From positions 1 to 5,684 of the forward strand of contig JANLIS010000109.1 of NCBI GenBank assembly GCA_024653985.1: DNA of 5,684 nt. The letters are read 5' to 3'. Of the stretch, positions 2,461-3,604 are shown piece by piece; within the stretch, counting starts at the first letter, position 1, and every line of letters begins with the position of its first letter. The notes beneath the pieces were generated by a model. It had not been told where the DNA came from. It ran no database searches and saw nothing but the letters and a program-made list of their open reading frames with translations. This stretch comes from Candidatus Roizmanbacteria bacterium (GTDB taxonomy: Bacteria > Patescibacteriota > Microgenomatia > UBA1406 > GWC2-37-13). The translations under genes and the position numbers were made by a program.

Positions 2461-3604
2461 TCAATAACTTCTTACTAAACTTCGTCAGCACTTCAACTTC
2501 TTTCTCGCTTTTTATCAACACTGTGTCTTCGACTCTCATTCCCCATTTTCCATCAAGATAAACTCCTGGTTCAACTGTCACCACTTGTCCGGGAAGCAAA
2601 ACATCGACGGAGGTAAAAGAAATTTTTGGGTATTCGTGGATCTGCAGTCCGACACCATGTCCGGTCGAATGTGAATATGTCAGCTGTTGACTGACATCAG
2701 ACAGTTGCCGACGGCAAAACTGATCAAGTGAAACCGGATTATTATCAGATCTCAATTGTTTAATCGTTCTTTCCTGAGCATTGAGAAGATCTTGATATGT
2801 GTTGATCATTTCTTGGGTAGGTTTTCCAGTGAAGATCATTCTGGTTGTGTCGGAGTGATAGTCATTAAATTTAGCTCCGTAGTCAATTAGGATTATGGAA
2901 TTTTTTTTGACCTTTTCATTATTTCCATTACGGGTATCATAATGGGGAACAGCCGAGTTTTTGTCTATGGCAACGATCGGATAGAAAGAAAGACCATGAC
3001 CTTTTTCTTTCAGCCAAAATTCAATTTTAAAAGCGATCTCTTTTTCAGTGACCCCGGGTCTGATCATTCTTACAACTTCCTCCAAACATTGATCTGCAAT
3101 TTTGCAGGCAGTTTTCAAATTATTTATCTCCTCTTCATCTTTTATCTCTCGTATTTTAATGACGAATTTTTCCAGTGGAACCAACTCAGTATTTGGTAAA
3201 TTATTCTTAATATTCATAAGTTCGTTAAATTTCAAATCATCTCCTTCAAACCCCAATTGTTTAATTTTTTTCTCTTTAATAATGTCTTGTATATGATTTA
3301 CTAAACCCTTTTCTGGGGTAATTAATCTGTATTTCACATTGTCATCCTCCGACTTGATCGGAGGATCCATCTCTCTGGATTCCCGCCTCCCCTTACAGGG
3401 TAAACGCGGGAATGACATATATCTCGCATCAGTAAATAAATATACGTTTTTATTTGTCACCAGTCCCCACGCTTCCCTCTCGTTGTCGATCAGGGTCCGA
3501 AACCCTGTTAAATAAAGAAGATTGTAAAAATTAGAGATCAAAAATCCGTCAAGATTTTTTTCTTTTAAAATTTTTCTTAATTTATCAAGGCGTGTTTGTA
3601 GCAT
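2444..3604 (-). CDS. M24B metallopeptidase (Xaa-Pro aminopeptidase / prolidase type) with inserted palindromic-element peptide
   Basis: This is a cytoplasmic dinuclear-metal enzyme that should cleave Xaa-Pro bonds in short peptides and recycle amino acids. The ATG at 3604 gives the family-typical opening with RLDKLRKILKEKNLDGFLIS. The creatinase N-domain covers about residues 1-150 and the pita-bread catalytic domain about 155-382. All five metal ligands are visible: D241 (ILIDYGA), D252 (YHSDTTR), H316 (STGHGVGLQIHE), E345 (TVEPGVYL) and E359 (RVEDTV). The catalytic-site His of VPHYD (H221) is also present. Length is 386 residues, against roughly 350-360 for the short family form. The excess is explained by residues 63-89, which are encoded by a 78-bp palindromic repeat lying in frame between LFTDARY and VKYRLITPEKG. 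The catalytic domain is untouched, so the enzyme is probably active. The final residues and stop codon lie in a short AT repeat. Choosing between PepP (aminopeptidase) and PepQ (dipeptidase) is not possible here. Confidence 0.93.
   Translation of the reverse strand: MLQTRLDKLRKILKEKNLDGFLISNFYNLLYLTGFRTLIDNEREAWGLVTNKNVYLFTDARYMSFPRLPCKGRRESREMDPPIKSEDDNVKYRLITPEKGLVNHIQDIIKEKKIKQLGFEGDDLKFNELMNIKNNLPNTELVPLEKFVIKIREIKDEEEINNLKTACKIADQCLEEVVRMIRPGVTEKEIAFKIEFWLKEKGHGLSFYPIVAIDKNSAVPHYDTRNGNNEKVKKNSIILIDYGAKFNDYHSDTTRMIFTGKPTQEMINTYQDLLNAQERTIKQLRSDNNPVSLDQFCRRQLSDVSQQLTYSHSTGHGVGLQIHEYPKISFTSVDVLLPGQVVTVEPGVYLDGKWGMRVEDTVLIKSEKEVEVLTKFSKKLLIISNY
3340..3417 (-). repeat. In-frame palindromic repeat element (RPE/MITE-like) inside the peptidase gene
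   Basis: This 78-bp unit is bounded by TGTCAT (3340-3345) and ATGACA (3412-3417). Read on the minus strand it starts TGTCATTCCCGCG and ends CGGAGGATGACA. It contains three hairpins: ATCCTCCGA/TCGGAGGAT (3344-3352 with 3358-3366), ATCCA/TGGAT (3365-3369 with 3376-3380) and ATTCCCGC/GCGGGAAT (3379-3386 with 3406-3413), the last with an inner CCCT/AGGG. This architecture, and the translated motif SFPR..ESR..DPPIKSEDD, belong to the TGTCATTCCCGC class of dispersed palindromes known from many bacterial genomes. The length is exactly 26 codons with no stop in the peptidase frame. Joining the flanking bases (3418 and 3339-3338) restores an intact AAT codon. The element is clearly richer in G and C than the surrounding gene. 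No clear target-site duplication is visible. Confidence 0.85.

Follow-up and report, generated by a model that had tools for sequence, protein, structure and literature searches.

We find that a conserved M24 peptidase gene of a Candidatus Roizmanbacteria bacterium carries, in frame and within a loop of variable length, what is very probably a dimer of TGTC-tagged REP units that is tolerated there as a predicted disordered segment, copies of the repeat presumably being filtered by reading frame and the loop remodelled by short-tract recombination. The gene lies in a stretch of 5,684 nucleotides of contig JANLIS010000109.1 (hereafter the window), and its features are collected in Table 1 together with the other proteins in which a copy of the repeat is read in frame. 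In-frame palindromic repeats are known in Rickettsia and some other bacteria.

The element and its host enzyme

An earlier note on this DNA had proposed that the 78 bp at 3340-3417, with ends TGTCAT/ATGACA, are a palindromic repeat now read as part of a conserved peptidase, in an apparent CPR bacterium. The boundaries, the length, the lack of stops in the gene frame and the clean codon join left on removal all proved correct, and the proposal itself is supported by the recurrence of the core hairpin ATTCCCGC..GCGGGAAT at 38 exact places in the 817-kb genome, where a reversed-pattern control gave 0. Read on the minus strand from 3417 to 3340, the element consists of TGTC, the core hairpin with a nested inner hairpin, the CCA..TGG stem, the ATCCTCCGATCAAGTCGGAGGAT hairpin, and GACA. 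Together with 5 bases on each side it folds at -40.7 kcal/mol, compared with -23.9 +/- 3.2 for shuffled sequences (z = -5.28), and none of 200 shuffles folded as well. In the window copy the two terminal tags can pair together, CCA can pair with TGG, and the loop of unit 1 has 19 bases with the inner hairpin inside it, compared with 4 bases in the common 20-bp copies. The window has no match in Rfam at gathering scores.

Table 1. Features of the host gene and element in the window, and other proteins with an in-frame copy of the repeat (G000, the genome of the window)
Feature	Position	Strand	Evidence
M24 (Xaa-Pro peptidase) gene, host of the element, 386 aa	2444..3604	(-)	Pfam and Foldseek
In-frame TGTC-tagged REP dimer, 78 bp, peptidase residues 63-89 (SFPRLPCKGRRESREMDPPIKSEDD)	3340..3417	(-)	Sequence, fold, genome copies
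REP unit 1 stem-loop ATTCCCGC ... GCGGGAAT after the TGTC tag, 35-bp long-arm variant	3379..3413	(-)	Five identical genomic 35-bp copies
15-bp segment encoding LPCKG (five codons) and including most of an inner hairpin	3390..3404	(-)	Presence/absence across copies
Middle short stem CCA ... TGG, from the inner tails of both REP units	3367..3378	(-)	Fold
REP unit 2 stem-loop ATCCTCCGATCAAGTCGGAGGAT before GACA	3344..3366	(-)	Fold; paired changes in the stem
FolC-like protein, REP in the loop after IYFV, SSSSPRRRGSRNMDSRLRGND	L101:898-2277 (G000 C33)		In-frame copy
Second Mur-ligase-like protein, VIPAKAGIQ	G000 C94:8843-10171, element near 9306		In-frame copy
Two membrane glycosyltransferase-like proteins, LIGGSRKLDSRLRGND; WIPAFAGMT			In-frame copies
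Nucleotidyltransferase-like protein, VIPAKAGIH			In-frame copy
ClpC-like protein, 44-bp-arm REP variant in the N-terminal linker, VIPAPDRSRGQAPAGIQ	G000 C68:1660-3498, element at 1890		

The host ORF matches Peptidase_M24 (1.4e-56) and Creatinase_N (4.6e-19) in Pfam, and the best Foldseek match to its model is 5cnx_A (TM 0.86 by query length), the neighbours being solved Xaa-Pro aminopeptidases and dipeptidases. Residues D241, D252, H316, E345 and E359, which we take to be the metal ligands from the roles known for the M24 family, show no variation across 61 aligned homologues; the ligands are intact, as had been stated, and with the fold they identify the protein as an M24 Xaa-Pro peptidase. 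Its named close relatives are Candidatus Roizmanbacteria. Elsewhere in the window, a long ORF at 1-2367, open at its 5' end, has no Pfam match and appears by eye to be membrane-like and then to consist of charged repeats.

In the AlphaFold2 model of the insert-bearing peptidase (61 sequences; mean pLDDT 91.4, pTM 0.88), pLDDT falls below 50 only at residues 65-85, and the model of the insert-free relative P0099 (pLDDT 94.7) has no comparable stretch of low confidence. According to the prediction, the insert forms a disordered loop at the surface of an ordered enzyme, in line with the earlier suggestion, and leaves fold and metal site intact; this is the likely reason why the element is tolerated. 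Comparing models with and without the insert, the low-confidence stretch is found only in the insert-bearing one, but the proposed loss of a helix after the LFTDARY strand is not borne out, as the model of the insert-free P0099 likewise shows no helix at this point. Removal of the 26 codons leaves a loop of 5 residues, against 8-29 in the other aligned rows (the exceptions being P0001 and P0002, which have the window allele and 31 residues, and P0108, clipped in extraction, with 6), so that the element probably took the place of some loop residues of the host, as had also been surmised.

Outside the insert, the gene and its counterpart in the relative G015 are 74.3% identical in DNA and 76% in protein, with third positions at 55%. 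Since third positions are far more diverged than amino acids, the enzyme is under selection, with amino-acid constraint around the insert. From its open and conserved frame we infer that the insert is translated; our explanation needs no function of the insert peptide.

Genomic copies and the REP superfamily

A search of the genome with the element gave 65 matches at E up to 10, and further copies were indeed found, four other places matching it over 44-55 bp at 95-100% identity. Copy-by-copy counts cover 37 of the 38 core hairpins, which were examined with their flanks. Hairpin 1 has forms of 20, 35 and 44 bp, the 35-bp form being represented by five identical copies, that of the window among them. 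Complete dimers make up 26 of the 37 copies, with the anatomy TGTC-[ATTCCCGC..GCGGGAAT]-CCA..TGG-[AT..AT]-GACA, and the spacer starts with CCA and ends with TGG in 25 of them. Compensatory pairs are present in the third stem of the dimers, that of unit 2, where both partners of pairs 5, 7 and 8 vary across the 13 distinct hairpins; the one mismatch, A-A, is at pair 7. The ATCAAGT type of second hairpin is rare: it is found in two of the 26 G000 dimers, that of the window (C12, 3344-3366) and one in C105 near 1450, both of them genic. The TGTC and CCA pattern occurs in 19 of the 57 genomes of the relatives set, its own genome counted, with 37 copies in G000, 34 in G014 and 31 in G015, and only 2 in G007 beyond the peptidase copy.

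In Di Nocera, De Gregorio and Rocco 2013 (PMC3733652), CGTC repeats are described as having a tag that is often TGTC or CCTC, an 8-9 bp stem starting with AT, a loop of 4-5 bases, with other lengths in some families, and a short unpaired CCA tail; they have a high copy number, frequently form dimers and are associated with no transposase, and REPs inside genes are already reported there. The features of our element are those of a dimer of this CGTC/TGTC-tagged superfamily. TGTC stands ahead of unit 1 in all 37 copies, and GACA, which is TGTC on the other strand, follows unit 2 in the window. The ATTCCCGC/GCGGGAAT stem has 8 bp, unit 2 also starts with AT (stem 6-10 bp), the 20-bp copies, unlike that of the window, have the 4-base loop, and the CCA tail is present in 36 of 37 copies, C35 having CTA. 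Copy number (38 hairpins) and dimers (26/37) agree with the description as well, and so does the location, mostly outside genes with some copies in frame within them. The genome contains five Y1_Tnp matches, and in a search limited to this class the core hairpin was absent within up to 1.5 kb on either side of the five Y1 transposase genes, a lack of flanking transposase that is again shared with the described repeats.

The element differs from the CGTC REPs described there (PMC3733652) in its Microgenomates/CPR host, the CPR not being among the five phyla named, in the 15-bp nested arm of the window copy, and in that the same protein loop is used by unrelated repeats in relatives. The parallel with Rickettsia drawn in the earlier note turned out to be closer than claimed: the intragenic R. 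conorii repeats RPE-4 and RPE-6 are assigned to the CGTC-tagged superfamily in the same paper (PMC3733652), so that the element shares with them the features of the superfamily as well as being a palindromic repeat in frame within conserved proteins. It is not itself an RPE, the named close relatives being Candidatus Roizmanbacteria and not Rickettsia, and it differs by its patchy, near-identical alleles at one codon, a comparison made with the published description of the RPE.

GTAG REPs, which RAYT transposases mobilise, are likewise short palindromic repeats in inverted pairs, but the tag of the element is TGTC and no core hairpin lies within the up to 1.5 kb searched around the five Y1 genes; a RAYT/GTAG origin was rejected, since tag and flanks do not fit. 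A MITE was also rejected: terminal inverted repeats of 15-30 bp are given as the criterion in PMC3733652, and perfect inversion at the ends of the element extends over just 6 bases. Its flanks, AGATATA and ATGTGAA, show by eye no duplication beyond 2 bases.

A variable loop and the spread of the insert

The segment following F[ST]DxRY varies in length among 26 aligned orthologues, our own included, as it might if the insert were ordinary loop divergence that resembles a repeat. This reading, or that of an assembly artefact, is almost certainly wrong, being refuted by the matches of 44-55 bp at four other genomic places and by homologues from elsewhere: P0002, 97% identical and from another assembly, has the same insert, and P0003, 85% identical, has a shorter form. 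A single assembly error, against which the earlier note had cautioned, is thereby dismissed; one error would have to be common to all assemblies.

Among the best 120 of 7601 homologues, five carry the SFPR insert (P0001-P0003, P0007 and P0118), and SFAKAS, SEARNPKQ, PAGRQ or HPANDG peptides are found at the same spot in other rows. Over 134 peptidase rows, the loop peptides are of SFPR type in 5, SFAKAS type in 9, SEARNPKQ type in 7, CCGCCAG type in 2 and PAGRQ type in 2. Searched against their own genomes, the loop DNA of G002 gives, itself counted, 15 matches at E < 1e-3 and 25 at E <= 0.5, that of G006 and of G011 is present in 14 and 21 copies respectively (control 0), and that of G035, again with itself counted, gives 26 matches at E < 1e-3, a figure in which some places appear twice, once per strand, and 47 at E <= 0.5. 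The same peptidase loop holds other, unrelated multi-copy repeats in these four relatives' genomes, and so the spot is likely one at which translation of repeat DNA does no harm. Between P0012 and P0027, 358 of 369 positions are identical outside the loop, and the loops are unrelated. The insert is indeed present in other orthologues, and the view gained from the window is refined to a patchy, mosaic spread with several repeat families in the loop.

Some details concern single genomes. The G002 loop was considered as a decayed form of the element and rejected, as it consists of another repeat, which has copies of its own. In the peptidase loop of G035 (L039:2350-2460) the genome matches fall in two adjoining blocks, an AT-rich repeat and a palindrome. 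In G057 a search for the exact PAGRQ pattern gave a single hit, as did one in G002 for the SFAKA-type pattern of its ClpC-like gene; multi-copy status is supported for neither.

An AU test on 26 rows chosen by hand rejected the carriers as one clade, both with four rows (p 1.1e-46) and with three rows, a set picked after the first tree (p 0.0028). A clade of P0001 and P0003 was not rejected (p 0.383), so that one insertion with losses is possible in that small group. On the 134-row tree the SFPR label needs four changes, three of them forced by starred branches, and since four changes or fewer also sufficed in 24 of 500 shuffles, it is hardly clustered. Yet the insert DNA is near-identical between carriers: 96.7% for G000/G015 against 74.3% elsewhere in the gene, a level reached by none of 342 windows of equal size, and 90.0% for G000/G007 against 66.5%, reached by none of 339. 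Taken together, these observations make it likely that the insert was transferred laterally as a short tract.

Moreover, the flanks of the insert in G015 resemble those of G002, which lacks this insert, more than those of G000 (140 vs 91 informative sites). In the four codons just upstream of the insert G000/G015 identity is 92% and G015/G002 identity 67%, and at 8-12 codons from it the values are 58% and 92%. This mosaic, seen in one genome pair, favours short-tract transfer of the insert. Constraint acting on the palindrome, and not recent transfer, could account for part of the near-identity.

A single ancient insertion, inherited vertically with many losses and kept similar by selection on the hairpins (as DNA or mRNA) or on the peptide, seems rather unlikely to us. 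Such a history would fit the 63-bp form found at the same codon position in G015 and G007 and the stem pairing kept across the repeat family, and losses could also produce carriers that do not form one clade, which is otherwise a point against it. However, G000 and G015 show no difference in the unpaired GAGAGA spacer or in 12 flanking bases downstream, and third-position identity between these genomes is 95% in the insert versus 55% outside, so that peptide constraint alone is not enough.

That each lineage acquired this REP type independently at the same codon, by way of a preferred target site, we regard as distinctly improbable. The pools exist, with 37 exact copies in G000 and 31 in G015, and the peptides of the FolC-like loop imply two REP orientations and hence at least two insertions, mostly on protein-level evidence. 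Against this, G000, G015 and G007 agree in orientation, in position after the Tyr codon and in the ATCAAGT second hairpin, a type confined to C12 and C105 among the G000 dimers, both genic, and G007 has only 2 other exact copies.

In the preferred explanation, short-tract recombination between lineages, and with intergenic copies, would swap or remodel the loop, which would account both for near-identical insert DNA in non-sister orthologues and for the 15-bp arm common to four other copies. These 15 bp are absent from the DNA of G015 and G007 and from the P0003 protein and are found in four other G000 copies, so that they were most likely gained by exchange with these copies. The original insert would then most likely be the 63-bp form, to which the arm was added later, and not the 78-bp form.

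In-frame copies in other proteins and their meaning

Seven of the 37 copies, in the peptidase and six more proteins, are in frame within long ORFs whose homologues align around them. The naming of the FolC-like protein is backed by source names of homologues, and the Mur-ligase-like, glycosyltransferase-like, nucleotidyltransferase-like and ClpC-like names are ones we presume from the look of the sequence. With six relatives searched, 3-6 homologous rows per insert-bearing protein align around the insert, the G016 row of the nucleotidyltransferase-like alignment stopping at it. The insert or a degenerate form is present in some relatives (WIPAFAGMT and VIPSKEGIQ in G014, DSRLRGND in G014 and G016), and in the other rows it is missing or has other letters in its place. 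Across proteins the inserts are read in several frames. In the FolC-like loop, CGTC-REP-like peptides occur in 11 of 120 homologues, in both orientations by their letters, and other recurring peptides occur in others. At the Mur-ligase-like site, VIPSKEGIQ in G014 and VIPKNVGNI in G016 stand in place of VIPAKAGIQ, which looks like a decaying translated repeat. The G002 orthologue of the ClpC-like protein has a SSFAKATADK stretch at the linker site instead of the REP.

Genic copies would be kept only when free of stops and able to keep the frame. The basic 28-bp unit has no stop in five of its six frames, and full dimers have a length divisible by three in 3 of 4 genic cases and in 3 of 22 elsewhere. 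The genic dimer of C68 has 86 bp, that is 2 mod 3, and neighbouring indels must therefore restore the frame.

That REPs lie inside genes was already known; new here are the host group, the loop used by several repeat families, and the mosaic spread. Among the papers listed by searches of the open-licence PMC literature, none dealt with translated REPs in CPR bacteria. It is possible, and we put it forward tentatively, that repeat DNA at intergenic sites and in protein loops offers homology for recombination, in which case surface loops of housekeeping enzymes in these CPR bacteria would be exchanged between lineages like cassettes and renewed out of each genome's stock of repeats, at a pace exceeding that of the enzymes' own evolution. 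If CPR genomes repeatedly use a few loops as sinks for many repeat families, the origin of protein segments from non-coding DNA could be watched there, with many natural replicates at one codon. Our work also carries a warning, that variable loops and recurrent metagenomic peptides such as SFPRRRESR, VIPAKAGIQ and DSRLRGND can be translated DNA repeats.
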